Source of the DNA: Terriglobia bacterium
GTDB lineage: Bacteria; Acidobacteriota; Terriglobia; JAJPHL01
Reading direction: 5' to 3'
Length of the DNA: 64,000 nt
Assembly (NCBI GenBank): GCA_021325275.1
Contig: JAJPHL010000071.1
Location: 62,001-126,000, forward strand
Below are positions 41,077-60,700 of this stretch, in pieces (position 1 is the first letter of the stretch; the number at the start of each line of letters is the position of its first letter). The translations under genes and the position numbers were made by a program. The notes below the pieces were generated by a model. It saw nothing but the letters and a program-made list of their open reading frames with translations. It was not told the DNA's origin and ran no database searches.

Positions 41077-41087
41077 GTAACCGGTTG

Positions 41088-41110
41088 GGCCGAAAACCTG
41101 GTTTTCGGCC
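41088..41110. promoter_or_regulatory. Perfect 10-bp stem inverted repeat between divergent genes
   Basis: GGCCGAAAAC and GTTTTCGGCC are separated by CTG. It sits between the YfgM-like promoter and the glycosyltransferase start and has no T-run on either strand, so an operator or cruciform is more likely than a terminator. Confidence 0.45.
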
Positions 41111-41121
41111 AAAGACCGCAG

Positions 41122-41127
41122 TAGTAT
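41122..41127 (+). promoter_or_regulatory. Weak leaderless -10 candidate for the glycosyltransferase
   Basis: TAGTAT matches four of six consensus bases and ends 8 bases before the ATG. No ribosome site is present there. Low confidence. Confidence 0.25.
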
Positions 41128-41135
41128 CTGGTGCT

Positions 41136-41951
41136 ATGCGCCGGATCGCCGGCCCGACTCTGTCCATAATCGTCATCACCTGGAACGAGGAGCGCAACAT
41201 ATGCCGCTGTCTCGATAGTCTTAGGTTTTCACCAAGCGTCTTGCGAAGGGAAGACGTCGTCGTGGTGGATGCTGAGAGTCAGGACAACACAGCGACGCTC
41301 GCCCACCAATGGGGAGCAAGCGTCTTCGTCCGGGCGTGGCCTGGCTATGGCGCTCAGAGGAACTGGGCGTTGGAGCGGTGCACAAGCGATTGGATTCTGA
41401 TGCTCGATGCCGATGAAGAACTAACCCCCGCCTTGATCGCGGAAATCGAAACGACACTTTCGCGCGCCGAGGCAGACGTGGATGGCTACCACATCAAGGG
41501 ACGTACGTTCTTCCTTGGCAAGTGGATCAGGCACTGTGGTTGGTGGCCTGGCTTTCATTTACGCCTTATTCGGAGAGGTTCGGGCGAATGTACCGAGATG
41601 CCGATCCACGAAGGCTTGGCTGTTACGGGCAGAACAGTCAAATTGAATGAGGCCATGAATCATTACAGCTACAACTCCCTTGAGCAGTTTCTGGAGAAAT
41701 CGAATCGGTATACCACCTTGTCGATGCTGGCCATACCGCTGGAAAAGCGCAAGCTTTGGAAATACCATCTGCTGGCCGCGCCGTTCCAAGAATTTTTCCG
41801 CATGTATATCCGGCGAATGGGCTTCCTGGAAGGCTGGCATGGATTGGTCTTATGCACCTTGACGGCGGCGGGCGCCTTTTGTGCGTATGCCAAGCTTTGG
41901 GAGAAAGAGATCTTGCCGCGCGAGCAAGCGAGCGATTCGGACCAACACTGA
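41136..41951 (+). CDS. Family 2 glycosyltransferase, WaaE/KdtX-like
   Basis: 271 residues. The GT-A nucleotide site starts at SIIVITWNEERNI; D45 (VVVVDAES) and the D91-A-D93 pair (LMLDADEEL) bind the nucleotide and metal. RAWPGYGAQRNWALE is typical of the WaaE/KdtX group, which adds a sugar to the lipopolysaccharide core. A C-terminal hydrophobic stretch (GWHGLVLCTLTAAGAFCAYA) associates it with the membrane. Codon use is noticeably less GC-biased than in the neighbours, which suggests transfer. It stands alone between the YfgM-like gene and the carrier-protein gene. An in-frame start at 41085 is less likely. Confidence 0.86.
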   Translation: MRRIAGPTLSIIVITWNEERNICRCLDSLRFSPSVLRREDVVVVDAESQDNTATLAHQWGASVFVRAWPGYGAQRNWALERCTSDWILMLDADEELTPALIAEIETTLSRAEADVDGYHIKGRTFFLGKWIRHCGWWPGFHLRLIRRGSGECTEMPIHEGLAVTGRTVKLNEAMNHYSYNSLEQFLEKSNRYTTLSMLAIPLEKRKLWKYHLLAAPFQEFFRMYIRRMGFLEGWHGLVLCTLTAAGAFCAYAKLWEKEILPREQASDSDQH

Positions 41952-42096: not shown

Positions 42097-42354
42097 ATGG
42101 GCACCCGCGAAACCGTTCTCAAAGCTCTCAACTCCACCGCCAAGGAACCGATTCCCTCGGACGACGACGCGTCGCTGTTCGAATGCGGAGCCATCGATTC
42201 GTTCGGCTTGCTCGACTTGATCGCCGCTCTCGAAGGCGAGTTCGGCGTCAAGGTGCCCGACGCCGATTTGACTCCGCGGCGTTTTTCGAGCGTTTCGAAA
42301 ATCACGGCGTACTTCGATCAAGTGCCCGGCAAGCAGAAACGCGCCGGCGGATAA
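42097..42354 (+). CDS. Acyl carrier protein
   Basis: 85 residues, a stand-alone carrier with the phosphopantetheine Ser35 in AIDSFGLLDL and the helical pattern of ACPs (ALEGEFGVKVPDADL). The basic C-terminal tail (GKQKRAGG) is unusual. Its stop overlaps the start of the KASIII-like gene (TAATG), so the two are coupled and the carrier is probably dedicated to that enzyme rather than to general fatty acid synthesis. Confidence 0.88.
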   Translation: MGTRETVLKALNSTAKEPIPSDDDASLFECGAIDSFGLLDLIAALEGEFGVKVPDADLTPRRFSSVSKITAYFDQVPGKQKRAGG

Positions 42355-43298
42355 TGGCACATCTAGCTGGTTTCGGACTCTATCTTCCCTCGCGTGAGCT
42401 CGGGAACGCCGAACTGGCGGCGGAATTCGGCGTCGATCCGCAATGGATTCTCGATTCCTGCGGGATCGTGACGCGCCGCATTGCGTCGCCGGAAGAAACT
42501 GCCGGCGAAATGGCGTTTCACGCCGGCGTTTCGGCACTGGCGCACGCGGGAATGAACGCGCATGACCTCGGAGCCATCATCGTGGGCACGGGCACGCCCG
42601 ATCGCCAGTTCCCCGGTGTGTCGGCGGCGCTGCAAAAACGCTTGGACGCGCCGGGAATCCCGGCCTTCGATATTCACTTGGCGAGTGCCGGCGGATTGTT
42701 CGCGCTGGCGGTCGCGAAAGAGATGTGCGCGGCGTATGGGCCGGTGCTCGTGGCGGCGTCCGAGCGCATGAGCGACGTGATGGCGCGCGCGCCGCGCACC
42801 AAGGAAACCGCGATCCTGTTCGGCGACGGTGCGGCCGCGATGATTGTCGCACCGAGTGCCGCGTCCGGCGACGGCGTGGTCGAGATTGTCGATGCGCGGA
42901 TTCATTCCGACGCCACGCACGCCGACGACTTATCGCTGGCGTTCGGCGAAACGCTGCGCATGAACGGTCGCACCGTGATTTTGCAAGCCCACCGCAAGCT
43001 AACGGAAGCGTCGAACGCGTTGTTGCAGCGCAACGGCATCACCGTCGACGACGTGGGCTTGTGGATTTTCCATCAAGCCAATTTGGTTTTACTGAATCAA
43101 GTGGCGAAGTCGCTTAAGATCCCACGCGAACGCGTTTATGTGAATGGAGACCGCTACGGCAACACTTCTGCGGCTTCCGTGCTAATCGCGGCCGCTGAAG
43201 CTCGCCTAAAATCATCGTTTCCTTCGGGGCTGGCGGTGATGGCTGCATTTGGCTCCGGGATGAGTTGGGGGTCGATGCTTCTGCGGGTGCGGGGTTAG
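42354..43298 (+). CDS. KASIII (FabH)-like enzyme with Ser replacing the catalytic Cys
   Basis: 314 residues with the thiolase-fold pattern of 3-oxoacyl-ACP synthase III: IIVGTGTPDRQFPG, ILFGDGAAAMIV, His240 in IFHQANLVLLNQ and Asn270 in GDRYGNTSAAS. The usual nucleophile Cys (as in AACAG) is Ser111 here (LASAGG, codon at 42684-42686). Ser variants such as DpsC and CerJ act as acyltransferases or accept unusual starters. It is coupled to a private carrier protein and faces an MBOAT-SGNH operon. The last 185 bases overlap the opposite-strand SGNH gene. Confidence 0.9.
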   Translation: MAHLAGFGLYLPSRELGNAELAAEFGVDPQWILDSCGIVTRRIASPEETAGEMAFHAGVSALAHAGMNAHDLGAIIVGTGTPDRQFPGVSAALQKRLDAPGIPAFDIHLASAGGLFALAVAKEMCAAYGPVLVAASERMSDVMARAPRTKETAILFGDGAAAMIVAPSAASGDGVVEIVDARIHSDATHADDLSLAFGETLRMNGRTVILQAHRKLTEASNALLQRNGITVDDVGLWIFHQANLVLLNQVAKSLKIPRERVYVNGDRYGNTSAASVLIAAAEARLKSSFPSGLAVMAAFGSGMSWGSMLLRVRG

Positions 43299-44700
43299 CG
43301 CCGGCCAGCAGCGCACGCACCAGCCACTTGCCCACGCGTCCCGCGCCGTTCGCCGTGGGATGCGTAAAGTCGCCGCCGACGAGTCGCGGCTTGCCGTGAT
43401 ACCAGCGCGCCATGGTTCCTTCACCGCCCATCGCTTCATACGTGTTGAAGAACGCACAATGATTGTCTTGTGCCACGCGCTGTTGCGCCGCGACAAGCTT
43501 GGGAATGGCCGGCATCGTGATGATTTCGCCTTGGTCCGAGCGCGTGCCGCGATCCATCGGGGCCATGATCAGAATCGCTGCCTGCGGCAGCGCGCCACGA
43601 ATGCTCTCGATGATCTTGCGGTAATCTCCCTCGTACTGCGCCGTGGGAAGATAACCGTAGCCGCTTTCGTTGGTGCCCAATCCCAAAATCACCAAGTGCG
43701 GACGACGCAGGCGCAGACTCTCCGACCATTCATCGAGATTTGGCAGCGTCATCCAATGAATCGACGCGCCCACCGAGCCGAGGCTGTCGTAGATCACGCC
43801 CGGTTGCTCGCGTTCCATCGCCACGCCGAACAGCGTCACGTCGCCGTCGCCTTTGGGACGCAGCGTGACTTCATGCGGCGTGTCGTCCACTTCGATCGCG
43901 TCCATCTTCAACTCGCGCGCCGCCGACGCGGTGGAGATTTCCTTTTTCATGTCACCGTCCACGAGCACTTGAAGCGATCCGCCCGCGGGCTTCGCTTGAT
44001 AGTGAACTTCCAGGCGTGAAAAGCGCAGGCGATTCTTGCGCCATCCGGTGAACGTAGAGTATGCGTCGCGCGACGATGCGGAAAACGCGATACCCTGCAA
44101 TCCGTAGTCGCCCTTGTTGCCCGGCGATTGCAAAAGCGGCGAGAGATTTTTCCAACCCTTCGACTTCAGCGTGATGCCGTCGTGCAAATAAAACTCCCAC
44201 GGACGTCCGGCGAGATGCCATCCGGGTCCCGCGTCGCCGAATTGTTTTTGCAACCGGTCGCGCGCCTCGCTGCTGATGAGATCGGCGGCCAGCGGACTAT
44301 CGCCGATGTGCAAGATGCGCGTAATGGAGTGCGGATCGGCGTCGGTGCGATTGGAGCGCGTGCTTTCGAGCGCCGCGTAAAACGGCGCGAGCGCGTCGGC
44401 GTTTTCGATGGGCACGGGCGCCGGTTCGCCGATTTCCTCGCCGGTGTAGTCGTCGTCGAATTTCGGCGGTGGCGCGACGGGCGCAGCAGGCTTGTTGGCC
44501 GCGACGACGGGCACAGGCGTTGGTTTGATCCGTGGCGGGAACATGCGCGAGAGCATGTCGTCGCTCCATGGGGCGATGAATGCTTGCCGCAAGCGATCGG
44601 CGTTTACGAAACGGAATCGCTCGAGCGACGAAACAAAGTAGGGAACCGCGCAAGCCAGCGCGAAGATTGCGATTGTCATAAGCGGCTTGCGCGTTTTCAT
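43114..44700 (-). CDS. Membrane-anchored SGNH/GDSL hydrolase 3, with antisense-overlapping tail
   Basis: 528 residues. An N-terminal membrane anchor (about 8-24) and a Pro-rich spacer to about 80 precede the SGNH domain. Block I is HIGDSPLAAD (S135), block III LGLGTNESGYG, and block V GGDFTHPT holds the Asp-His pair, so the triad is intact. A beta-rich insertion sits between blocks I and III, as in the two sister genes. The domain should end near 43290, but the frame continues about 58 residues into the opposite-strand KASIII gene as a Pro/Arg-rich tail. It ends an operon with MBOAT and two other SGNH genes; presumably an acyl esterase or transferase on an extracytoplasmic polymer. Confidence 0.87.
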   Translation of the reverse strand: MKTRKPLMTIAIFALACAVPYFVSSLERFRFVNADRLRQAFIAPWSDDMLSRMFPPRIKPTPVPVVAANKPAAPVAPPPKFDDDYTGEEIGEPAPVPIENADALAPFYAALESTRSNRTDADPHSITRILHIGDSPLAADLISSEARDRLQKQFGDAGPGWHLAGRPWEFYLHDGITLKSKGWKNLSPLLQSPGNKGDYGLQGIAFSASSRDAYSTFTGWRKNRLRFSRLEVHYQAKPAGGSLQVLVDGDMKKEISTASAARELKMDAIEVDDTPHEVTLRPKGDGDVTLFGVAMEREQPGVIYDSLGSVGASIHWMTLPNLDEWSESLRLRRPHLVILGLGTNESGYGYLPTAQYEGDYRKIIESIRGALPQAAILIMAPMDRGTRSDQGEIITMPAIPKLVAAQQRVAQDNHCAFFNTYEAMGGEGTMARWYHGKPRLVGGDFTHPTANGAGRVGKWLVRALLAGANPAPAEASTPNSSRSQMQPSPPAPKETMILGELQRPRLARKPQKCCRSGLHSHKRVRVGS

Positions 44701-44710
44701 GTTGGCGGGT

Positions 44711-46087
44711 TCAGAATCTTTGGTAAATGAACGGCGACACCTGTGCGCCGCCGATCCAACGCACGACCATCGCGCAAAGCACCAGCAGCATGGCTTGCGC
44801 CACAGCCGGCTGCATCACGAAGGCACAACGCACCCGCGTGAGCCAGTTGTCCGGCGCAAACTGCAACACGATCGCCGCCAAAGTCGCGGCGATCACCGGC
44901 AGCGAAATGTTTGCCGCGCCCGTCGAGAGGTCGCCGAGCTTGCCGAGCACGTCGCGAGCCTGCGCAAGAGTGTCGCAGCGGAAGAAAATCCACGCGAATA
45001 CGACAAAGTGAAACGTCACGAACGTCCCAGCGATCACGCGCCAGCGTGCCGGCGTGCGTCCCGCGGGCCAAAGCGCCGAGAACCCACGATGAATCGCTTG
45101 ACCCGCACCGTGCAAGCATCCCCAAATCACAAAGGTCCACGACGCGCCGTGCCACAGTCCCGCGAGCGCGAACGTCACGATCACGTTCACGTAGCGCATC
45201 GCCGGAACGCGTTTCCCGGGCAGCGAGAAATAAAGATAATCCTGAAGCCACGTGGAGAGGCTGATGTGCCAACGCTTCCAAAACTCCGCGAGATCGGACG
45301 CGCGGTACGGCGATTTGAAATTGTCCTTCAGACGAATGCCGAGCAGCAGCGCCGAGCCGATGGCGATGTCCGAGTAACCGGAGAAATCGCAATAGATTTG
45401 CGCGGCGTAGGCGTAAACGCCGGTGAGCACTTCGGCGGACGAAAAAAACAACGGCTGATCGAAGACGCGGTTGACGATCGATTCCGCGAGGTAATCGGCG
45501 ATCACGCACTTCTTCACGAATCCCAGCGCGATCAGGAAAAACCCTTCCGCCATGAGGTCGGGATCGATGGATTGCGCCTGCCGGCGCAGTTGCGGAAAGA
45601 GTGTTTCGGCGCGCGTGATCGGTCCTGCCAGCAGCGTGGGGAAGAACGAGACGAACGCCAGATACTCGACGAAGGAATGCGTGGCGGCTTGGTTGCGCTG
45701 ATAAACGTCGAGCACGTAGCTCAACGATTGGAACGTGTAGAACGATATTCCCGCCATCATCACGATGCGGAAGGGCAGGGAATGGACACCGAAGAATCCC
45801 AGGTACTTGAAGAACGCCAGGATTCCGAGGTCGACCGCGAGCGAAACGCCCACGAGCAACCGTCGGCGCGGAAGATCAAAAGTATATTCCAGCGCGATGG
45901 CTACGAGAAAGTCCGTGGCCGCCGTGATCAGCAGGGGAATGCAGTAAAGCACATTCCATGTCCCGTAGAAAACCAGGCTCAGCAGAACCAACACCCCCGC
46001 GACACGGCGTCCCGTTGCCGCGAACGCCCAGTAGAGCACCGCCGCCGCAGCTAGAAAGACGAGATACGACGTTTCGCTGAGAGACAT
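44711..46087 (-). CDS. MBOAT-family O-acyltransferase (AlgI-like)
   Basis: 458 residues with about ten membrane segments. AlgI-type marks are ISFYTFQSLSYVLDVY (114-129), FPTLLAGPITR (149-159), IYCDFSGYSDIAIGSA (231-246), KRWHISLSTW (271-280) and the catalytic His313 in GLWHGASWTF. MBOAT proteins of this type move an acetyl or acyl group from a cytoplasmic donor across the membrane to an SGNH-like protein that puts it on a polysaccharide or protein. Spacing to the flanking SGNH genes is 6 and 10 bases, so the operon is tight. Confidence 0.93.
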   Translation of the reverse strand: MSLSETSYLVFLAAAAVLYWAFAATGRRVAGVLVLLSLVFYGTWNVLYCIPLLITAATDFLVAIALEYTFDLPRRRLLVGVSLAVDLGILAFFKYLGFFGVHSLPFRIVMMAGISFYTFQSLSYVLDVYQRNQAATHSFVEYLAFVSFFPTLLAGPITRAETLFPQLRRQAQSIDPDLMAEGFFLIALGFVKKCVIADYLAESIVNRVFDQPLFFSSAEVLTGVYAYAAQIYCDFSGYSDIAIGSALLLGIRLKDNFKSPYRASDLAEFWKRWHISLSTWLQDYLYFSLPGKRVPAMRYVNVIVTFALAGLWHGASWTFVIWGCLHGAGQAIHRGFSALWPAGRTPARWRVIAGTFVTFHFVVFAWIFFRCDTLAQARDVLGKLGDLSTGAANISLPVIAATLAAIVLQFAPDNWLTRVRCAFVMQPAVAQAMLLVLCAMVVRWIGGAQVSPFIYQRF

Positions 46088-46093
46088 GGCGGC

Positions 46094-47470
46094 TTAGGGG
46101 GTTCCTGCAGGAACTTCGGCGGGCATCAGCGCGCCCGCGAGCATTTTCGCGAGCATCTGATAACCGGAATCGGTGAGGTGAACGAGATCCGTTTGCGCCA
46201 GCGACGATTTCCGCCAACGCAAGAGTGCCCCGAAGCCGCCCATGGCCGCGCGCGCATCCCAAAAGGCGCAGCCGGTTTCGCGCGCCGCCGCCGCCAGCGC
46301 GTCGATGGTCATGTCGGAACGTTCGTGGAAGTAGTCGCGCGTTTTAGTAGTGCGGCCGGGGCGGTCGATCGGTCCGGTAACGAGCACCGCCGCGCCCGGG
46401 GCTTCTTCGCGAAGCGCCTTCAACAGGCGGATGCATCGTTCCTGGTAGGCCGGCTTCGAGAAGTCGCGCGCGCCCATGTCGTTCGTGCCATAGCTCACGA
46501 TGATCAGCGTGGGATTCAGGCGCGCCAGCAAGTCTTGGCGAAGTTGCGCCGGGATGTCGTCGAGTTCCGCGAAGGTCACGCCGTTGATGCCGAAGGAATC
46601 GTAGATCACGCCAGGGCCGCTGCCGCCGCGCGGATCCTGCCCTCGTAAATCCAGGCCGACCACCGTCGGTCCCGCCGCGCCGTCGCAGCCCGCCACGGCG
46701 ATGGTGTGTGTAGCCAACGGCAGCGGATCGCGATTGCGCATAAGAAGTAGTGATCCATACTGACGTGCCTCGAGCGATTCGCGTTCCAACTCGACGTTTT
46801 CTTTTTGTCCGGCGTCATCTTCCACGTTAACTTCGGCGCACGCCGTCTCACCCGGTCGCGCTGCCAACTCGAGCTCGAAGCTCGAGAAGCGCGCCGTGGC
46901 TGTGGCGGCCGGGGCTTCGGCGTGACCAACCAGCGCCGCGCCGGGCAATCCGAGGAGTCCGTCCGACGGCGGTTTGCGCAGCGTCACGCCTTGCCAACTT
47001 CTTGCCGGCGCGTGAATCGCCACGCCGGCGCGCCGGTATCCCCGGAAAACCGAGCCCGGCAGCACGAGTCCGGGGCCGGCGTCGCCGAAGCGGTCTTGGA
47101 AGGCGGTGCGCAGGTAGCGTGTCCAGATGTCCGCGGCGACATGGGAGTCGCCGAAATGGACAATGCGGACCGGCGCGGTTTTGTCAGCCAGCGCCTTGTA
47201 AAACGGCGCGAGCGAGTCGTCGCGATTCGCAATTTCCACGGCGACCGGTTCGGGCGGCGGCAGCGGCTTCACGGGAGTCCGCCTGACGGAGCGGCGATGG
47301 GCGGTGGTTTTGGTATTGGTGGACTTGGCGTTCTTAGCTGAGGCCGCCGGTTTCTTGGCCGGCGTCTTCTTGGTCGTCCGGTGAGCCGCAGGCTTCTTGG
47401 CGGCGGGCTTTTTCGGTGCGCTTTGCGCGCTTACAACCGTTGCGAAGGCCAGAATCACACCGAGAAGCAA
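46094..47470 (-). CDS. Exported SGNH/GDSL hydrolase 2 with Lys/Ala/Pro-rich linker
   Basis: 458 residues from a TTG (47470), or a GTG at 47458, just after the stop of the preceding gene. A signal peptide (ending VVSAQ) leads to a Lys/Ala/Pro-rich stretch of about 50 residues (repeated KKPAA units, possibly cell-wall-binding). SGNH block I is VHFGDSHVAADIW, block III IIVSYGTNDMG, and block V QTDLVHLTDSG with Asp and His. The same beta insertion lies between blocks I and III as in the other two. Triad intact. Its function follows from the MBOAT partner. Confidence 0.9.
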   Translation of the reverse strand: MLLGVILAFATVVSAQSAPKKPAAKKPAAHRTTKKTPAKKPAASAKNAKSTNTKTTAHRRSVRRTPVKPLPPPEPVAVEIANRDDSLAPFYKALADKTAPVRIVHFGDSHVAADIWTRYLRTAFQDRFGDAGPGLVLPGSVFRGYRRAGVAIHAPARSWQGVTLRKPPSDGLLGLPGAALVGHAEAPAATATARFSSFELELAARPGETACAEVNVEDDAGQKENVELERESLEARQYGSLLLMRNRDPLPLATHTIAVAGCDGAAGPTVVGLDLRGQDPRGGSGPGVIYDSFGINGVTFAELDDIPAQLRQDLLARLNPTLIIVSYGTNDMGARDFSKPAYQERCIRLLKALREEAPGAAVLVTGPIDRPGRTTKTRDYFHERSDMTIDALAAAARETGCAFWDARAAMGGFGALLRWRKSSLAQTDLVHLTDSGYQMLAKMLAGALMPAEVPAGTP

Positions 47471-47474
47471 GGGA

Positions 47475-48695
47475 TTAGTTCCTTACTTCCGTGCCGCCTT
47501 GGTCGAGCAAGCGGCGGATCGTGGCAGGATCGTTGGTAAGAGTGACGCGGCCGTCGGGCGTGCGAATGCGAAACGTTTTCTGACTCACGTCGATGACCAT
47601 CGCTGGCCCGGCAGACGCCGCGCCCGGCACGGCGGCGGCAATGTACGCGGCGAGCCGCTGGTATCCGAGCGGCGTGAAGTGCGTGCGATCGGGTTGCGCG
47701 AGCGGTGGGTCGGCAGCGGCCCATCGCGCCGCCGTCCCCGGTCCTCCCATGGCCGCTTCGAGATTGAGGAATCCAACGCCTTTGGCGCGGGCCGCCGCTT
47801 CGATGCTGCGGATCACGCCGGCGAGCGTCGGCAGCGTGCCCCAGCCGCCCGTATTGCCGCGATCGGGCGGCCCGACCAACAGCACGGCCGCGCCGGGCGC
47901 CGCGCGATAAATGCGGTCGACAATTTCGCCCAGCCGCGCGGCGTTGGCCGTTTCGTCCACGCCCGCGCCGCTCGATTCGTTTGTACCGTACGCCAGAATC
48001 ACGACGTTGGCCTGCTCCCACTCGAGTTGAGATTCAAACGCCGCTTCGTTGATGTGCAGCAAATTCTCGGCGCGCGCACCGACCACGCCCAGCGGACTGT
48101 AGACCACGCCGGGCGTGTCGTTTTCAAGATGCAAGCTCAGTAGGCGGACCGCGCCGCCGAGCGTTTGGATCGTCAGTCGCTGCGCGTCGCGTCGCGGCAA
48201 GCGAATATTATGCGGCGCGGCTTGCGGCCACGCGCCGTTCAGGTCCATGTCGCCGAGCGGAGCGCCGTTCGAGTAGAAACGTACACGGCCGCCGCCAGGC
48301 TGCTTCAAGAAAAATGCGCGAACGGTGGTGAAATCGCCCGAGACCTCGATGGTTTCTCCGGCGCGCGACGTTTCAAGCAACATCCCGGGGAGTCCCAGAA
48401 ATTCGTCGTGCGAATTGGGCGCAGGCCGCGTTTGAATCGTCCAGCCCTTCGAGCATTTCGATCCGCGCGCCGCGCACGGAAGAAACGATCCGAAGCCGCC
48501 GTCGCCGAGCGTTTCTTGGAAATGCTGGCGCAACGCGATTTGCAGGGAATCGGCGGCCGTATGAGAGTCACCGAATTGCACAATGCGCAGTTTGCCATCC
48601 GCGCCGCGTTCGGTGTGCGCGGGTGTGGCCGCTTCGAATCCGGCAAGTCCTGCGGCGGATGCCAGTGCGAGCAGCAGCGTAGCGAAAACAGCCAT
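47475..48695 (-). CDS. Exported SGNH/GDSL hydrolase 1, first gene of the acylation operon
   Basis: 406 residues. A signal peptide (MAVFATLLLALASAAGLAG) is followed by block I VQFGDSHTAADSL, block III VILAYGTNESSG and block V QPDRTHFTPLGY, so the catalytic Ser, Asn, Asp and His are all present. A C-terminal strand-rich tail (VIDVSQKTFRIRTPDG) is extra. It begins the four-gene operon, 4 bases before the second SGNH gene. A TACAAT -10 lies 7 bases before its ATG. Upstream, 81 bases separate it from the end of the giant surface-protein gene on the same strand. Confidence 0.9.
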   Translation of the reverse strand: MAVFATLLLALASAAGLAGFEAATPAHTERGADGKLRIVQFGDSHTAADSLQIALRQHFQETLGDGGFGSFLPCAARGSKCSKGWTIQTRPAPNSHDEFLGLPGMLLETSRAGETIEVSGDFTTVRAFFLKQPGGGRVRFYSNGAPLGDMDLNGAWPQAAPHNIRLPRRDAQRLTIQTLGGAVRLLSLHLENDTPGVVYSPLGVVGARAENLLHINEAAFESQLEWEQANVVILAYGTNESSGAGVDETANAARLGEIVDRIYRAAPGAAVLLVGPPDRGNTGGWGTLPTLAGVIRSIEAAARAKGVGFLNLEAAMGGPGTAARWAAADPPLAQPDRTHFTPLGYQRLAAYIAAAVPGAASAGPAMVIDVSQKTFRIRTPDGRVTLTNDPATIRRLLDQGGTEVRN

Positions 48696-48776: not shown

Positions 48777-51700
48777 TTAACGCACCCGCACGGCGCCGCC
48801 GACGATTCGCACTTCCTCGCCGCCCAGGTCGTTGGCGGAAACGCCCAGCAGCGCGCCGCGATCCAAGCCGTCCACCGAGCCGAGCAACAGACGTTGGCCA
48901 CTCGACAACGTAATGTCGTTCGACGTGCCATTCGACTTCCCACTCAACCACGCCAGCGCGATTTTTCCGGGTTGTCCCACATCCACGATGCTGGCGGGAG
49001 TCTCGCCGGGCGTGAAATTGGCTTGCTGCCCTTCCGGCAATCGGAACGACACCGCCAGGCCCTTCAGATTCAAGTCGCGGTGCGCCACCAAGTAAATGGC
49101 ATTGCCTTGCACTTCGATACTTCCGTCAGCAGCGCCCTCCACTGGTGGACGCCGGCTCTCCGCTTCGATTTGCGAACACGTCAAACCGCGCGGTGCGCGC
49201 TGCGGACGCGACGCGTCGAGCACGGTGACGCGGCGCAGCGTTTCGATCAAGTCCAGAGTATTGAGGCGGCCGTCGCCGCCGCGCTGCATCGTTGTGTCGA
49301 CGGGAGAGGCATCCATGGCGTCGAAACGATCGCTGCACGTCGCGGGAGTGGAAATATTGGTGACCGCCCGCAGCACATCGATCAAATCAAGCGTGTTGAG
49401 CAACCCGTCCCCGAACGATCCGGCCGTATCGGCGGTGTGCGGATAACTGTCACCGACCAAGTAGCCGACCACCAGCGTGACCGTGGCGTCCGCGCCGGCC
49501 GAGAGTGGAACCGCCGTGCCGCTTTGCGCCGCGTCGGCTGCCGTTATGTGCACGTTATAGGTTTGTCCAACCGTCGCGGCCGGCGGGATCACTACCTGAA
49601 TCACGCCGATGGCAACCTGGCCGGTGAGCGATGCGGTGAACGATCCGTAAAATACTCCCACGTTGGCGTTCGTGGCGGTGATTGTGGGCGAACCGCTCGC
49701 AACGGGAAGCGCGGCGTCCGATCGAAACGCCGTGCTGGCAGCAATGGCGGGGGCCATGTTCACCGGCGTCAATTGCACGCCGAAGCTCAATGCGCCGACC
49801 GTTGCTCCGCTGTTCAAATTCAGCACCACCGGAATTGCCGCCGGCGCGCCGGGCGATCCGTTGACCGACTGCGCCGTCAACGTTCCTTGGACCGAACTTC
49901 CCACCGTGAAAGTGATGGGCGAAGATGTGCCGCCGCCCGGCGCCGGAGTAAACACCGTGACGGCCACGGGGCCGGCCGCGGCAATGTCGGCGGCGTTGAT
50001 GGTCGCGGAAAGTTGTTGCGGGCTGCCGAAAGTAGTGACTCGCGCGCTGCCGCCCCATTGCACGACGGAGTTAGGTGCGAAGTTACTGCCGTAAACTCTC
50101 AACGTGAAGGCCGCCGAACCAGCGGCGATCGTCGACGGCGAAACGAGATTGATCGTGGGCGGCAGGTTCGTCTGCGTAACGGTGATCGCGTTCGATTTGC
50201 CGGTGATGCTGCTCGTGACCGTATCGGTGGCCGTGATCGTCTGCGATCCGCTGCTCCTCAGGGTCACGGGGAATATTCCGGCGCCACTGCTCAGCGTGGA
50301 ATTGGACACAAGCGTTGCCGACGCGTCCGACGAAGTGAAATGCACGGTGCCGGTGTAGCTCGTCACCGTGTTTCCGAATGGATCGACCGCCGTCACCGTG
50401 ATGTTGAATGCCACGCCGGCCGCCGCCGTCGACGGCGCGGTCACTTGTAAATTCGCAAAGGATGCCGCACTGACTGCGATCGAGCTCGATGTACCCGTGA
50501 TCGCGCTCGTGACGGTATCGTTGGCGCCGACGGTCTGGAGGCCGGCGGTCTTCAGTATGACGGAGAACGTTCCCACGCCGTTTGTGAGCGTCGAGTTGCC
50601 CGGCAGCGACGCCGCGCCGTCGGATGACGTGAAGTGCACCGTGCCGGTGTAATTCGCCGCCGTGTTGCCGAATTGATCGAAGGCCGCGACGGTGATGTTG
50701 AACGGCGTGCCGGCCGTGGCCGTCGATACCGCGCTCACCTGCAAGTGCACGCCGGATGCAGCGCTAACGGCGATCGTGCTCGATGTGCCGGTGATCAAGC
50801 CGCTGACCGTGTCGCCCGCGGTAATGGTCCTCGATCCGCTGGTGTTCAGTGTGACGGAGAACGTTCCCACGCCGTGGCTGAGCGTCGAGTTGCTTGGCAG
50901 TGACGCCGCGCCGTCCGTCGATGTGAAATGCACCGTGCCGGTGTAGCCGATGGCCGTGTTGTTGAACTGATCGAGCGCCGTGACCGTCACGCTAAACGCC
51001 GCGCCGGCCGTTGCGATCGCCGGTGTGCTCAGCGAGAAGTGCGTCGCCGCCCCGGCGTTCACCGCGACTGCACTTGATGTGCCGGTAATCGACGATGTGA
51101 CCGTGTCGGTCGCCGTGATCGTTTGCGATCCAGCGAACTTCAGTGTGACCGGGAAGGTTCCCGCGCCGCTATTCAGCGTGGAATTGCTTGGCAGAGTGGC
51201 CGCAACGTCGGACGACGTGAAGCGCACCGTGCCCGTGTAGCTAGTCGCGACGTTGTTGAATGCATCGAGGGCCGTGACCGTGACGTTGAACGCCGTGCCG
51301 GGACTTGCCGTCGACGGCGCGGTTACCTGCAAGCGCCCGGCGGCTCCGGCACTGACCGTGATCGTATTCGATGTTCCCGTGATCGTGCTCGTCACGGTGT
51401 CGGTCGCTGTGACGGTTTGCGTGCCGCTGGCGTCGAATGTCACGCCGTTCGAAAAAGTATGCACGCCGTTGTCGCTCACCTGGAACGTGTAATTGCCGGG
51501 GACCGTGCCGAGGAGAATGGGCTCGGACTTCGTGAAGCGCACCGTGCCGCGATATCCGGTCGCGACATTGTTGAATGTATCGAGCGCCGTTACGGTGATG
51601 CTGACGGCCGCGCCTGCCGTTGCGGCCGCCGGCCCGGTCACAGTGAGGTGCGTGGCCGTGCCCGCCACCACTAAGATCGAGCTCGACGCGCCGGTGATCG

Positions 51701-54700
51701 TGGTGTTTACCGTGTCGGTCGCGGTGATCGTACGGCTGCCGGCGGTTGAGAGGGTGGCGGAAAACGTTCCTGCGCCGTTGGTCAACGTAGCGTTGGCGGG
51801 CAGCGACGCCGACACGTCGGTGGACGTGAAATGTACCGTGCCCGAGTAGCCGGTGGCCACGTTGTTCGATCCATCGAGCGCCGTCACCGTGATGTTGAAC
51901 GCTGCGCCGGCCGTCGCCGTCGACGGCGCGGTCACGGTGAAATGAAGGATCGGGACTGCCGTATTGCTCAGCGCAAAATTCGCGGTGGCCGCCGACGCTT
52001 GATCGGGCGTCGTGCCGCTGGCGGCGACGTTGTACGGTCCGCCGACCGTCGTGTTCGCAGTGAACGTCTCGGAAACTTGTCCATTCGCAGCAGTCGCCGC
52101 GGTAATCGTGTTGGTGGAGTTCGAAAATGTGCCGCTGGCGCCCGTGGACGGCGCGGTGAATGTTACAGAAACTCCCGGCACCGTCGCCGAGCACGATCCG
52201 CACGATTCGGTTGCCGTCGCGGTGAGCGGAGTTGCGAAAATCGTGCCGGCGCTGGCAGATTGCGGTGTCCCGCCCGTGGCGGAAATGGTCACGCCTTGCA
52301 TTTGCACCGCGCCGATGTCGATCTTGCCGTTCGTCACGCGCGCGAATCCGCGCTGATCGGTCGCCGGCGCGCCAGCCGTCGTGCCGGCGCCGAGAGCGGG
52401 ACTGTTGCCGTTCGGCAACATCGTCTGGAAGGGTCCGCCATTGTTCGCGAGCGGGCTTAACGCGGCAGAGACCGGCGATCCGTTGAACCCCACGATGTTT
52501 CCGTTGACGCCGTTGGACAGACCGAATATTCCCGTGCTGTTGCCGATCAAGTTGTTGCTGCCGTTAATCGCCCCGCTGCCATCCGGCGCGAGGGAGTGCG
52601 CATCGCTATTGCCGGCCAGGATGGTATTGGTCAACGTGCAGGTGACATTCTGCGACGCGCAGTAGATTCCGCCGCCCGAGTCCTGGTTGAATACGCCCGT
52701 CTGGGAATTGCCGCTGATGGTGCTGTTCTGAATCGTGAGCGTGGTATTGACGACCGCCGCGATGGCCCCACCCGAGGCGACTCCGAAGTTGTTGGGATCG
52801 GCCGCTTGGTTGCCGGAGAATGTTGAATTGATAATGGTCAGCGGAGTCGGTGTCTGGAACGCGCCGGCAAAAAAGATCGCGCCCCCCTCGCCGGACCCTT
52901 TCGCGGAGCCCGCCGCAACATTGCCGGCGAACGTGCTGTTGGTGATGGTGGTGGGGCCGAAGCTCTCGATCCCTCCGCCGGAAGCCGCCGTGTTGTTGGA
53001 AATCGTGCACTGGCTGACGGCGAGCGTGCCCGTTGATTCACTCAAGATGGCGCCGCCGTCGGAGGATTGGTTCGCGTTGAGCACGCAGGAGCTCAGCGTC
53101 AAGTTTCCGAAGTTTAAGATGGCGCCGCCTCCAGCCACGGTGTCGAGACCATGCTGGATCGTCAAGCCGGAAATCGCCACCGTCGTCCCTTGGTTGATGG
53201 TGAACGGCTGATACAAATTCGCACCGTCGATGGCCAGGCTCGAGGCGCCTGGTCCCGTGATCGTCACGTTTTGCGTGATCTCCGGGTAGGCACTGGCCAG
53301 CGTGATCGTGCCGGTGACTCCGTTGACGAACGTAATCGCCGCGCTACCCGCGCCGCTGTTGCTCGAAATGATCGCCTGGCGCAGCGAACCGGTCCCGCTA
53401 TCGTTCGTGTTCGTCACCACGATCTGCACCGCAACCACGTTGATCGCGCTGGATGTGCCGGTGATCGAAGACGTCACCGTATCGGTCGCCGTGACCGTTT
53501 TGTTTCCGATGCTCACGAGCGTCACGCCGTTGGTGAACGTGTGGACGCCGGCGTCGCTCGCCTGGAACGTGTAGTTGCCGGGGATCACATGCCCCACGCC
53601 GCTATCGACTGTTGTAAAGGTCACCGTGCCGCGGTAGCCGGTGGCTACGTTGTTGTTCTGATCGAGCGCCGTCACCGTGACGCTGAAAGACGTGCCTGCC
53701 GTCGCCGTCGATGGCGCGCTAATGGAAAGATGGTTGGCCGCGTTGGAATTGCCCGTGTTGGTCAGCGCGAAATTCACGTTCGATGCGGAGGCGTTATCGG
53801 GCGTGGTGGCGCTGGCCGTGACGTTGTACGGACCTCCGGTGGTGGAGTTTGCCGCAAACGTTTCGGAAACTTGTCCATTCGCGCCTGTCGACGCGGTGAT
53901 CGTATTGGTGGAATTCGAGAATGTGCCGCTCGCGCCCGTGGACGGCGCCGTAAACGTCACCGCGACACCGGGTACGGCAACGTTGGACGTGTATTCCGTT
54001 GCCGTCGCCATCAACGCTGTCGCGAAGGTCGTGTTGATCCCCGCCGTCTGTGGCGTGCCGCTTGTGGCGGCGACGGCGACGCCTTGCAATTGCACCGCGC
54101 CGATGTCCATGACTCCGTGAACCACGCGCGGGAATCCGCGTTGATCCGTCGCCGGTGCGCCGGACGTGCTTCCCGCCGCGAGCGCGGGACTGTTGCCGCC
54201 CGGCAGCATCGTTTGCGTGGGTCCACCGTTGTTGGCCAACGGGCCCAGTAGCGGATTCACCGGCGACGCGGCCGATCCCACGATGTTGCCATTCACGCCG
54301 TTGGTTAGAGAAGTGCCCGCTCCGTTGCCGATCAAGTTATAGGTTCCGGTGAAGGAACCGCCGGCGTCGGGCCAGAGGCCGTTCGCGGCAGTGTTTCCGG
54401 CCAGAATCGTATTCGTTACGGTGCAGGTGTCGAAGCAGTAGAGTCCGCCGGCCGCGTCAAAGTTGGCCGTACCGGTCTGACTATTGCCGGTGATCGTGCT
54501 GTTCTGGAACGTGCATGTATCGGTGCAATAGATGGCCCCTCCGTGGCTGGATTGCATATTGAAGGGATCGGTAATCTGATTGCCCGTGAATGTCGAGTTG
54601 ACGACGATGAGGGCTCCGGCACTGTCACTGGCGATCGCGCCGCCATCGCCACCGATGTAAGTGCCGCCCGTCGCGGTGTTGCCGGAGAACGTACTGTTCG

Positions 54701-57700
54701 TGATCGTAGCTGTACCGAGATTTGCAATGGCGCCGCCGTAGCCGTTTGACCCCGCGGTGTTGTTAGTGAAAGTGCACTTATCCACGTTCAGCGTGGCATT
54801 GTTATAGACGGCGCCGCCGGAGGCTGTGAAGTTGCCGGAAGCGATCGACTGATTGGCGTTGAGGACACAGGAACTCAAGTTCAGAGTTCCCAGGATGTTG
54901 ATGATGGCGCCGCCGAGGCTGTGCTGAATCGTCACGCCGGAAATGGATACCGTCGCCTGAGCGATCGAAAAGGGTTGGTACAGATTCGCGCCATCGATGA
55001 TCAGATTCGACGCGCCCGGCCCCGTAATCGTCAGGCTTCGCGAGATCTGCGGGAACGCGCTTTGCAAGGTGATGGTGCCCGTGACTCCGCTGGCGAAAGT
55101 GATCGTCGCGCCGCCACTGGAGGTGTTGCCGGCCAGGATCGCTTGACGCAGGGAGCCGGTCCCGCTGTCGTTGGTGTTGGTCACCACGAGAGCCGTCGTC
55201 CCGGGCACGTTGATCGTCCCGGAAGTGCCGGTGATCGTCGAGGTGACCGTATCGGTCACGGAAATCGTTTGCGATCCCGCGGTATTCAGTGTGACGGAGA
55301 ACGTTCCCGTGCCATTGGTCAGCGTCGAGTTCGCGGGCAGCGTCGCCGCGCCATCGGTGGACGTGAAGTGGATCGCGCCCGCGTAGCTCGTGGCGGTGTT
55401 GTTGGAAGCGTCGAGCGCGGTGACCGTGACACTGAAATTACTGTTGGGCGCCGCCGTCGACGGTGCGCTCACTACGAAATGCGTGGCAGGCGCGGAGGCT
55501 ACCGCAATCGCATTCGAACTCCCGGTGATCGACGACGTGACGGTGTCGGTGGCGGTAAACGTTTGCGATCCCGCGGTTCTCAGCGTGATGACGAAAGTTC
55601 CCGTGCCATTGGTGAGCGTCGCGTTCGCCGGCAGCGTCGCCGCGCCATCGGTGGAAGTGAAGTGGATCGTCCCCGCGTAGGTCGTCGCGTTGTTGTTGAG
55701 CGCGTCGAGTGCGCTTACCGCGACCCCAAACGCGACGCCGGCGGTTGCCGCGGCCGGCGCACTCGTGACGAAGTGCGTGGCGGCTCCGCCGGCCGCCGCA
55801 ATCGCGGACGAAGTCCCGGTGATCGTCGACGTAACGGTGTCGGTGGCGGTGATCGTAAACGATCCCGCGCTCCTCAGCGTAACGGAGAACGTACCACTGC
55901 CATTGGTCAACCTCGAGTTGACCGGCAACGTCGCCACGCCGTCGGTGGAAGTGAAATGCACCGTACCCGCGTATCCGACGGCCGTGTTGTTGAACTGATC
56001 GAGCGCGGTGACCGTCACATTGAACGGGGCGGTCTCAGTCACCGTCGACGGCGCGCTCACGGCGAAGTGCGTCGCCGCAGCGGCGCTGACCGCGATCGCG
56101 CTCGACGTACCGGTGATCGCACCGGTGACCGTGTCGGTCGCCGTAATCGTGCGGCTGCCTGAGGTCGCCAGCGTGGCGGAGAACGTGCCGGTGCCGCCGG
56201 TCAGCATGGCATTCGCCGGAAGCGTCGCCGACGCGTCGGTGGAAGTGAAGTGCACCGTGCCCGTGTAGCCTGTCGCGACGTTGTTGAATGCATCGAACGC
56301 CGTCACCGTGACGTTGAACGCCGCGCCGGCCGTGGCCGTTGACGGCGCGCTCGCCGTGAAGTGCGTGGCCGTTCCAGCGACGTTGGTCAGCGCGAAATTC
56401 ACGCTGGACGCCGAGGCCTGATCGCCAGTCGTGCCACTCGCCGTCACGTTGTAAGGTCCGCCGACGATCGAGTTCGCCGTAAACGACTCGGAAATCTGTC
56501 CATTCACGCCCGTCGCTGCCGTGATCGTGTTGGTCGAGTTCGAGAACGTGCCGCTCGCGCCGGTGGACGGCGCGGTGAACGTCACCGCGACGCCCGGAAT
56601 CGCTGCGCCCGACGTATTTTCCGTCGCGCTAGCGGTAAGTGCAGCCGCAAAAGCCGTGTCCAGGGCCGTCGATTGCGGCGTGCCGCTCGTCGCGGAAATC
56701 GCGACGCCTTGCAATTGCACCGCGCCGATATCGACTTGGCCGTTGACGACGCGAGGGAATCCGCGTTGATCCGTGGCCGACGCGCCACTGGTGGAGCCCG
56801 CCGCGAGTGCGGGACTATTGCCGCCCGGCAGCATCGTTGGCGTCGGTCCACCGTTATTGGCCAGCGGGCCCAATTGAGGATTGATCGGGTTACCCGACGT
56901 TCCCACGATGTTGCCGTTCAAGTTGCTTGGGGAGAGGTCCGCTCCGTTGCCGATCAAGTTGTGGGTTCCGGTGAAGGTACCGCCAATGTCAGGCATGACG
57001 CCGCTCGCGGCGGTGTTTCCGGCCAAGATCGTATTGGTCACGGTGCAATAGCAGTAGAGTCCGCCGGTCCAGTCAAAGACGGCCGTACCGGTCTGACTAT
57101 TGCCGACGATCGTGCTGTTCTGAATCGTGCCTGTGCCGAGGACCATGATGGCCCCGCCGACGCCGGATTCCGAATTAAAGGGATCCGTGATCTGATTGCC
57201 CGTGAATGTCGAGTTGACGATAGTGATAACGGTTGAGGTATATCTGCTGGCGATCGCGCCGCCATTTCCACTCATGACGGTGCCACCCGTCGCGGTATTG
57301 CCGGAGAAAGTGCTGTTCGTGACCGTGGCTGTGCCTGTGTTGTTGTTCCAAATCGCGCCGCCGTAGCCGTTTGGCCCTGCGGTGTTGCTTGTAAAACTAC
57401 ACCGGTCCACGATCAGCGTGGAGGTGTTGTAAACGGCGCCACCGCCGACCGACCCGCTAGGAGCCGACGCCTGATTGGAGTTGAAGACGCAAGAACTTAA
57501 GGTCAGGGTTCCATTGGTATTGACGATGGCGCCGCCGAGGTTACTAAAGCCGTGCTGAATCGTCACACCGGAAATGGACACCGTCGCTTGACTGATCGAG
57601 AAGGGTTGGTACAGATTCGCGCCGTCGATGATGAGATTCGACGCGCCCGGTCCCGTGATCGCCATGGTCTGCGAGATCTGTGGCAAAGCGCTTTGCAAGG

Positions 57701-60700
57701 TGATGGTGCCGGTTACTCCGTTGGCGAAAGTGATCGCGGCGCCGGCGCTAGAGGCGTTGCCGGCGATGATCGCTTGACGCAGGGAGCCGGTCCCGCTGTC
57801 GTTGGTGTTGGTCACCACGAGAGCCGTCGGCACAGGCACGTTGATCGTACCGGACGTGCCGGTGCTCGATGTGGTCACGGTATCAGTCGCCGTGATCGTC
57901 TGATTGCCGATGGTGTTCAGCGTGGCGGAGAATGTACCCATGCCGCCCAAGAGCGTTGCATTGACCGGCAGCTTCGCAGACCCATCGGTGGACGTGAAAT
58001 GCGCGGTTCCCGAGTACGTGCTTACGGTGCGATTGAATTGATCGAGCGCCGTGACAGTGAAACTAAACACGCTGCCGACCGGGACGATCGAGGGCGCGCT
58101 GACCGAGAAGTGCGTGACTGGTCCGATGTTGGTCAGCGCGAAATTCACGCTGGCGGGCGCAGCTTGATCCACCGACGTGGCGCTGGCGGTGACGTTGTAC
58201 GGTCCACCGGGCGTCATGTTCGCCGTGAACTCCTCCACAACCACCTTGCTGGCGTTCGTTGTCGCCGTAATCGTCGTGGTGGAGTTCGAGAACGTTCCGC
58301 TCGGACCGGTTGACGGCGCGGTCAAGCTCACTGAAATGCCCGGCACCTCCTGTCCCGACATGTTTTCGAGGGCCGTGACGATGAGCTCGAACGCTGTGCC
58401 GACTTCCGTCGATTGCGTCGGGCCGCTGGTCGCGGAAAGCGTCACACCTTGGAATTGCACTGCGCCGATGTCGATCTTGCCGTTGACCACGCGCGGGAAT
58501 CCGCGTTGATCGGTCGCGGGCGCGTTCGCAGTGCTGCCCGCGCCGAGCACGGGACTATTTCCATTCGGCAGCATCGTCAGTGTGAATCCAGCGTTATTGA
58601 GCAGGGGTGCTAACAAGGGAGAAATCGGCGAGGCGGAGGTACCCACGATGTTGCCGTTCACTCCGTTCGCAATGCCTGTGAGGGCCGTGCCGTCGCCGAT
58701 CAAATTGTTCCCGCCGTCGGTGAACGAGAGCAGCGAGTAGGCGTCCGGACCGGCCGGCGCGGTATTCCCGGCCACGATCATGTTGGAAAGCGTGATATTC
58801 AACCCGTAGATTCCGCCGCCGAAATCCCCGGAGCTATCGGTGCGGGTTCCCGTATTACTGTTTCCGTAAATCGTGCTGTTTGACACGACCAAGCCGCCGC
58901 TGCTGCTGTAGATTCCGCCGCCGAACGCGCGGCCGGCGCTTTGGGGATCGCTCACCTGATTTCCGGCGATGGTCGATCCACCGATTGTCATGACTCCGCC
59001 GTTATTCGCGATGCCCCCGCCCAATGCCCCCTGGGTGGGGCCGCCCACCGCCGTATTTCCGGAGATCGTGCTGTTGGTGATGACGGCGGCGCCGTGGCTG
59101 TAGACGCCTCCGCCGCCGATGCCGTGAGATTGATTATTGGAAATCGTGCACTGATCCACACTCAATGTTGCGCCGGGATCGTTAGAGATCCCCCCGCCGG
59201 CGTTCGCCGCGACGTTTCCGGTGATCGTGCACGAGCTCAACGTCAGCGTGCCGCTGTTGCCAACGCCACCGCCGAGATTTCCAGCGAGACCGTTCTGGAT
59301 CGTCACGCCGGAAATCGACGCCGTCACTTCGCTCGCGACCGAGAACACTTGGACGGCGTTATTTCCACTGATCGCGACACTCGACCCAGTGGGCCCGGCG
59401 ATCGTTATGCTCTGCGTCAGGGCGAGCGTCGCGCCCAGCGTGATCGTCGAAGGATTCGGCAAATTGAACGTGATCGCGCCGCCCGCCGGATCGGCATTCG
59501 CCGCGGCGACTTGCGCGGCCAGCGAACCGGCGCCGGACGCATTCGTATTCGTCACGACGTAGGAGGTCGGCGCGGGCACGTTGACGGCGGCTTGCCCGCT
59601 GAGTGACGAATTGACGGTATCAATCGCGGTGATGCTCTGCGATCCGATGGTGTTGAGCGTCGCGGTGAACGTACCGGTGCCGTTGGTGAGCGTGGAGTCC
59701 GACGGGAGCATCGCCGCGCCGCCGCTAGAGGTGAAGTGCACGGTTCCCGTGTAGCCGGTGACCGTGGCGTTCGACGCATTGAGTGCCGTGACCGTGAAAC
59801 TGAACTGCGTTCCCTTGGCGATCGTCGAAGGAGCGCTCACCGCGAAGTGCGTAGCCGCGGCGGACACGTTGGTCAGCGCGAAATTCACGGTGGACGCCGA
59901 TGCTTGATCGGGCGTCGTGGCGCCGGCCGTGACATTGTACGGTCCGCCGGCCGTCGCATTGGCGGTGAACGATTCCGCGATCGCGCCGCTTGCGTTGGTG
60001 GTTGCGGTGATCGTGTTTGTCGAGTTGGAGAATGTGCCGCTTGGGCCGGTGGACGGCGCGGTGAAGGTCATCGAAACGCCAGAAACCGCAACGCCCGACG
60101 TGTTTTCCGTCGCCGTCGCCGTCAGCGGAGTCGCGAACGCCGTGCCGGCCGCGGTTGATTGCGGCGTGCCCGCGCTGGCGGCGAGCGTGACGCCTTGGAA
60201 TTGCACGGCACCGATGTCGATTGTGCCGTTCACCACGCGCGCGAATCCGCGTTGATCGGTCGCGGGTGCGTTCGCGGTGGTGCCCGCCGCGAGCGCGGGA
60301 CTATTGACGCTCGGCAACGCCGTGCGCGTCGGTCCGCCATTGTTTGCCAACGGTCCCAGCAACGGATCGACAGGAGACGCGCCCGTTCCCACTCGATTGC
60401 CGTTCAGACCGTCGGTAATGCCCGTGAGAGAAGCGGCAGCGCCGATCAGGTTGTTGTTCCCCGAAAACGCCCCTGAAAGATCGGATTCCACACTGGCGAA
60501 ATTGTTGGAGGCAATCGTATTGGTTAGCGTTGCGCTACCGCCGGAACTCAAAATACCGCCACCAAGCGAGGATGAATTTGCAACGATCGTGCAGTTCGAC
60601 ACCGTGAGGGTTCCGCCGAAGTTGTAGATCGCGCTACCCGCGGCAATCACGGTGGGAGCCAAGTTCTGATAGAAAGTGGTGTCCGTGAGGGTTGCTACGC

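Follow-up and report, generated by a model that had tools for sequence, protein, structure and literature searches.

A conserved MBOAT-SGNH operon of Acidobacteriota accompanied by a private acyl carrier protein and KASIII-like enzyme, a candidate carrier-fed system of envelope acylation

Why should an operon of the kind that O-acylates cell envelope polymers stand next to an acyl carrier protein (ACP) and an enzyme that could charge it? The question was raised by a 64,000-nucleotide stretch of the genome of a Terriglobia bacterium (assembly GCA_021325275.1, contig JAJPHL010000071.1, positions 62,001 to 126,000; hereafter the window). Here, four minus-strand genes encoding three SGNH proteins and a membrane-bound O-acyltransferase (MBOAT), in the order SGNH3-SGNH2-MBOAT-SGNH1, face a plus-strand pair encoding an ACP and an enzyme resembling beta-ketoacyl-ACP synthase III (KASIII). 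The host genome measures 6.86 Mb. A first-pass annotation of the window had proposed a system for acylating the envelope that has its private carrier and a serine-type KASIII, and our analyses upheld this proposal as a conserved, co-occurring gene set. We consider it well supported that the ACP-KASIII pair is functionally tied to the MBOAT-SGNH set. In the reading that we favor, which is in our judgment an even call, the operon carries out O-acylation of the peptidoglycan type and the private ACP supplies its membrane acyltransferase.

The arrangement described in the first pass was borne out. The minus-strand genes are separated by 4 bases (SGNH3/SGNH2), 6 bases (SGNH2/MBOAT) and 10 bases (MBOAT/SGNH1), and the stop codon of the ACP gene shares one base with the ATG of the KASIII gene, whose product has Ser111 at the position of the usual cysteine and keeps His240 and Asn270. 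Each of the six genes was supported by Pfam (PP-binding, ACP_syn_III N and C, GDSL_2 for all three SGNH proteins, and MBOAT).

Analyses of other genomes indicated that the six-gene set stays together in many soil and freshwater Acidobacteriota. A named genome collection yielded 54 loci of the operon KASIII family, nearly all from Acidobacteriota, and the family was separated from FabH by a sharp gap in score (at least 366 bits versus at most 257 bits). Loci were counted by six-frame profile searches, as the strands assigned by the gene caller were unreliable at the high-GC loci L164, L169 and L170 (numbers with L and G are our labels for loci and genomes). The 42 family loci for which 4.7 kb or more upstream of the KASIII gene was available, among which a few genomes are represented twice and relatives are not independent, had an ACP in 40 cases, SGNH2 in 36, SGNH1 in 34 and an MBOAT in 33. 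In contrast, none of 24 ordinary FabH loci had these partner genes (Fisher test, 1e-10, which ignores relatedness and is thus indicative only). Conservation of the ACP-KASIII pair near the operon in relatives, on which the first-pass annotation had staked its proposal, was therefore found.

The best KASIII matches in relatives lay close to the best MBOAT matches, and the same-strand order MBOAT-SGNH1-SGNH2-ACP-KASIII occurred in G020, G028 and G035, and likewise, interrupted by three additional genes, in G056. G004 and G012 retain both parts of the set, at two separate places. The exact layout of the window, with its two halves facing each other, was also found at L102/L170 and at L169, in two other families. 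Because distant genomes share this gene set and layout, the association is above chance. Three SGNH genes beside an MBOAT gene also occur in G356, with a similar pattern in G355 and G357. No further gene was found between the six or recurrently adjoining them at the loci examined, including no gene for the adenylating enzyme DltA.

In addition, the partners co-occurred across whole genomes. Among 297 genomes of the phylum, SGNH1 (above 400 bits) was identified in 12, all 12 of which also had the operon KASIII. The operon KASIII itself was present in 13 (10 of the serine type above 370 bits and three of the cysteine type), and 12 of these 13 had SGNH1. Thirteen genomes, picked mainly for a lone pair or a cut contig and with two linked ones added as reference, were examined for partners elsewhere; SGNH-type matches were found in 12, a full-strength SGNH1 in 11 and an MBOAT in 11, and G353 alone had none of the partners.

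The carrier and the membrane protein both resemble components of the Dlt system. The best PDB matches of the ACP profile were 6cxt and two D-alanyl carrier proteins, 8jf2 and 6bug, and the Asp-Ser-Phe (DSF) motif was invariant in a nine-row alignment. The MBOAT family profile matched DltB as its sole PDB hit (6e-38). Both proteins scored below the equivalog cut-offs of their Dlt counterparts (37.1 versus 68 bits and 27 versus 52 bits for DltC; 183.8 versus 375 bits for DltB). Since the DltB model picks up ordinary MBOATs of the same genome as well, the likeness to DltB is no proof of carrier use. The catalytic His and the C-terminal F..Y..F motif were invariant in 25/25 MBOAT orthologs; PatA acetylates the tyrosine of this motif, and PatB can accept the group from that tyrosine (PMC12148441).

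Other MBOAT loci were also observed. The same genome has two more (L174 and L175), with no ACP or KASIII gene nearby; their proteins end in FVYFQF and FIYFQY, each adjoins a small protein not recognized by Pfam, and L174 sits among glycosyltransferase-like genes. At L052/L053 an ACP-KASIII pair adjoins a different type of MBOAT flanked by two secreted SGNH-like proteins, which have GNS and D-x-x-H motifs and were not recognized by Pfam; a cupin-like gene at these loci is shared with L048. The position of the pair beside a second MBOAT type fits a module that serves MBOATs. At L179 and L180 an MBOAT and two SGNH proteins of this kind occur without ACP or KASIII, and these sets are a possible carrier-free ancestor or relative.

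The KASIII is related to FabH and distinct from it. Its best PDB relative was FabH (2ebd, 4e-77), and its scores fell below the NCBIfam cut-offs for FabH (231.3 versus 292.1 bits) and KAS3 (245.2 versus 249 bits). The nucleophile was Ser in 59/59 members of the KASIII clade, compared with Cys in 26/26 FabH sequences. The operon KASIIIs of L113, L165, L166 and L168 keep the Cys and grouped with the Ser clade against FabH (SH-aLRT support 99, in a quick tree whose FabH rows were picked by similarity). Since this sister clade stands in the same operon, the change from Cys to Ser arose inside the system and does not define it; on the evidence of L113, L165 and L166, we rejected the idea that the system requires Ser. 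In one genome with the Cys-type enzyme (L167/L168), the KASIII and ACP genes are on separate contigs.

Two further features of the KASIII bear on its partner and substrate. FabH has Lys or Arg at both positions 214 and 249 (E. coli numbering), which we take to be part of its ACP-docking face. Lys was found at position 214 in 0/63 operon KASIIIs, which have Leu, Met or in a few cases Arg instead, and position 249 was Asn in 57/63; the loss of these basic residues is consistent with a different partner. The Phe87 position was Phe in 51/59 Ser-type enzymes. In E. coli FabH this residue restricts the size of the acyl pocket, and its retention, if anything, suggests a small acyl group. The first-pass suggestion that the group may be something other than acetyl gained no direct support. 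The same genome also encodes a separate Cys-type FabH (L178).

The catalytic triads that the first pass had read as intact in all three SGNH proteins are complete, and each is accompanied by the block III Asn (S135/D444/H447 in SGNH1, S109/D428/H431 in SGNH2 and S44/D336/H339 in SGNH3). Neisseria Ape1 (4k3u) was found by the SGNH1 profile at 4e-30 and by the SGNH2/3 profile at 5e-58. AlphaFold models of SGNH1 and SGNH2 (pLDDT 80 each) matched Ape1 over their full length, with TM-scores relative to the target of 0.85 and 0.82, respectively; Campylobacter Ape1 was second, followed by a wide gap to the next fold. SGNH3 was placed by its alignment with SGNH2. These models bear out the shared beta insertion noted in the first pass, as Ape1 has an insert of this kind. 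The likeness that had been drawn to AlgI/J/X and PatA/B holds for the kind of system, MBOAT-SGNH acylation, and fails for the SGNH proteins; an AlgJ/AlgX- or PatB-type SGNH was rejected because the models match the Ape1 fold. Ape1 recognizes peptidoglycan via a carbohydrate-binding module (PMC12148441), and the likeness of the SGNH proteins to Ape1 points to peptidoglycan.

The SGNH orthologs, whose starts were called by a simple script, fall into two kinds. Those of SGNH1 carry a hydrophobic anchor at the N-terminus and a moderate linker, whereas most of those of SGNH2 carry a signal peptide and a linker that is strongly basic (generally 15-30% Lys+Arg, in the majority of orthologs with a called start). 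Block I was GDSP in SGNH1 and GDSH in SGNH2/3, with no exceptions. The first pass had suggested that three SGNH proteins may give several acceptors; with SGNH1 anchored and SGNH2/3 exported, one writer with secreted partners or erasers fits as well. The coordinates of all features are given in Table 1.

Table 1. Coordinates in the window of the six genes and of the motifs within them.
Feature	Position	Strand	Properties
ACP	42097-42354	+	85 aa; phosphopantetheine Ser35 at 42199-42201; Pfam PF00550 1e-9
KASIII-like enzyme	42354-43298	+	314 aa; Ser111 at 42684-42686, His240, Asn270; Pfam ACP_syn_III N and C
SGNH1	43114-44700	-	528 aa; uncleaved N-terminal membrane anchor, linker, Ape1-fold SGNH domain, GDSP; GDSL_2
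MBOAT	44711-46087	-	458 aa; catalytic His313; Pfam PF03062 1e-31
FIYQRF hexapeptide, MBOAT C-terminus	44714-44731	-	acyl-shuttle motif; Tyr455 at 44723-44725
SGNH2	46094-47470	-	458 aa; signal peptide, Ape1-fold SGNH domain, GDSH; GDSL_2
SGNH2 basic linker, Lys/Ala/Pro/Thr-rich	47261-47413	-	approximately residues 20-70; read from sequence
SGNH3	47475-48695	-	406 aa; exported, Ape1-like SGNH2 paralog without basic linker; GDSL_2

In the mechanism that we propose, the KASIII would take up a short acyl group on Ser111, with acyl-CoA (or acyl-ACP) as the donor, and pass it to the phosphopantetheine of the private ACP; the KSIII-like enzyme ChlB3, which loads the discrete carrier ChlB2, is a precedent for such charging (PMC9573744). 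The acyl-ACP would then dock at the cytoplasmic face of the DltB-like MBOAT, by analogy with DltC on DltB. The MBOAT would then load the group onto Tyr455 in its FIYQRF tail, a step for which the motif and the catalytic His are seen here and the chemistry is taken from PatA; an acyl-tyrosine relay is known in both PatA and Dlt (PMC12148441). On the outer side, the anchored SGNH1 would accept the group on Ser135 and hand it to a glycan. The most likely glycan is peptidoglycan, which the Ape1-type inserted carbohydrate-binding domain of the SGNH1 model may recognize. The exported SGNH2 and SGNH3 would work on that polymer too, either as additional transferases or, like Ape1, as esterases that take the group off again. 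What the acyl group is, which molecule accepts it and in which direction SGNH2/3 act are points that we infer.

Several observations weigh against this mechanism. PatA uses acetyl-CoA directly, which leaves the need for a carrier unexplained. The block II Gly was kept in 25/25 SGNH1 and 27/27 SGNH2/3 proteins; it is replaced by Ser or Asn in PatB-type transferases and has also been lost in OatA (PMC12148441), so that by this published criterion the proteins are hydrolase-like and any of them may be a hydrolase. In G353 (L098) a Ser-type KASIII was found with no adjacent ACP and with no SGNH1 or MBOAT in the genome, and this enzyme may be an orphan or have a different role. Finally, the operon KASIIIs keep the full decarboxylation set (in E. 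coli numbering, His244 in 63/63, Asn274 in 63/63 and Phe304 in 62/63), which goes beyond what a plain transacylase needs, so that condensation could still take place.

This last point is one ground for an alternative in which the relay is the same and the KASIII condenses acyl-CoA with malonyl on the private ACP, such that the exported group is a beta-ketoacyl group, e.g., acetoacetyl. The Cys retained by the sister clade in the same operon also speaks for it, and a carrier would be sensible if the group is assembled on the carrier. However, serine is usually a poorer nucleophile than cysteine for condensation, the basic residues of FabH at 214 and 249 are lost, and no ketoreductase or chain-processing gene is conserved beside the operon. 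We regard this alternative as unlikely, and we are more doubtful still of its boldest form, in which a condensing enzyme with a Ser nucleophile builds the acyl group (e.g., acetoacetyl) on the private carrier and the tyrosine shuttle of the MBOAT exports it onto peptidoglycan as a new wall ester.

A second alternative, also unlikely in our view, leaves the relay as proposed and makes the acceptor an exopolysaccharide or other envelope polymer in place of peptidoglycan. MBOAT-SGNH systems do act on alginate, cellulose and secondary wall polymers (PMC12148441), the basic linker of SGNH2 could bind any anionic polymer, and a GT2 gene (41085-41951) lies directly upstream of the ACP gene. On the other hand, all the SGNH profiles and both models matched Ape1 first and far ahead of other proteins, and no recurrent polysaccharide synthesis cluster was seen among neighbors that were read by their first residues and not individually annotated. 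The GT2 gene was rejected as a member of the operon as it does not recur beside the ACP at other loci.

The pair might also have a task of its own, with the KASIII acting as a CerJ-type O-acyltransferase that unloads the ACP to a soluble acceptor, the MBOAT using acyl-CoA, and regulation alone being shared. KSIII-like acyltransferases with discrete carriers exist (PMC9573744), and the MBOAT-SGNH-SGNH sets of L179 and L180 manage without the pair. Nevertheless, no small-molecule pathway gene was seen to recur with the ACP-KASIII pair, which instead tracks the MBOAT-SGNH set across genomes. Membership of the KASIII in the DpsC/CerJ group was rejected, since the entries for DpsC (5wgc) and CerJ (3s3l) were absent from the 45 PDB sequences matched at E<=1e-20, a list led by FabH. 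These data make such a division of labor quite improbable. That an MBOAT-SGNH operon lies by chance next to an unrelated fatty-acid gene pair, as the opposite strands of the two halves in the window might hint, is barely credible given the same-strand operon in dozens of genomes, the co-occurrence even when unlinked, and the separate Cys-type FabH of this genome.

Several other features of the window were noted. The 3' ends of the convergent halves overlap by 185 bases (43114-43298), with the tail of SGNH1 antisense to the 3' end of the KASIII gene; the tail encoded there extends past the ends of SGNH1 orthologs and was of low confidence in the predicted structure. A promoter and terminator scan gave no signal exceeding that of shuffled sequence, tRNA and Rfam searches of the window gave no matches, and a PHROGs search with the ACP gave no match. 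A giant open reading frame (48777-63998, minus strand; more than 5000 aa) runs off the window and has beta-helix and immunoglobulin-like repeats; by eye, it also has a cohesin-like stretch and two C-terminal dockerin-like repeats (GDGLLNTLDLI and GDGRLNTLDLI). The first-pass suggestion that this surface protein is a target or partner of the system gained no support, as no match to it was found at about 100 other loci in a search limited by low-complexity masking. Among the family loci, L105 (labeled Myxococcota) and L093 (labeled Verrucomicrobiota) may be mislabeled bins, and L079, filed as Bordetella parapertussis, is the same locus as acidobacterial G004:C4 and is probably a mislabeled bin.

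Together, these data indicate that the operon is a real, conserved variant of MBOAT-SGNH envelope acylation. It is apparently undescribed, as a literature search for an MBOAT-ACP-KASIII system, with most subscription journals outside its reach, returned nothing relevant. The parts are of known kinds, and the new element is the supply by carrier and KASIII. MBOAT/SGNH pathways other than Dlt have been described as working without a carrier protein (PMC12148441), and a 2025 paper ascribes this to acyl-CoA being their source; the operon is a clear candidate exception to that rule. If the proposed mechanism is true, the Dlt and PatAB branches of envelope acylation would be connected through it, and an unnamed family of KASIII enzymes that use a serine nucleophile would gain a function. 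The mechanism also predicts a specific wall modification, and cultured strains, Granulicella rosea DSM 18704 among them, could be searched for it. The Acidobacteriota are among the most abundant and least understood phyla of soil.

Of the known systems, the PatA/PatB/Ape1 cluster of Gram-negative bacteria is similar in having an MBOAT with a catalytic His and a C-terminal FxYxxF shuttle, a membrane-anchored SGNH protein with a linker and a secreted Ape1-fold SGNH protein in one cluster. The operon described here differs in adding a private ACP and KASIII, and, unlike PatB, its anchored SGNH1 is Ape1-like, with the insert and the block II Gly. Dlt (DltABCDX) shares with it a DltC-related carrier, a DltB-related MBOAT, an acyl-tyrosine shuttle and an SGNH acceptor. 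However, there is a KASIII in place of DltA, the shuttle is fused to the MBOAT where Dlt has a separate DltX, the SGNH proteins are Ape1-like and not DltD, the phylum is Gram-negative, and the scores are far below the DltB and DltC cut-offs. The alginate proteins AlgI/AlgJ/AlgX likewise combine a single MBOAT with at least two SGNH-type proteins, but here the SGNH proteins are of the Ape1 type, alginate genes are absent, and a carrier and KASIII are added. As for the KASIII, FabH provides the nearest PDB sequences and the same active-site His, Asn and Phe, whereas the operon enzymes have Ser for Cys (in the main clade), have lost the residues at 214 and 249, form a separate branch of the tree and are tied to the MBOAT operon. 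ChlB3/ChlB2, DpsC and CerJ are comparable in the KSIII fold used with a discrete carrier (ChlB3 loading ChlB2) and, in DpsC, in the Ser nucleophile; they are not near relatives by sequence, and they serve antibiotics and other secondary metabolites, whereas the operon described here would serve the envelope.

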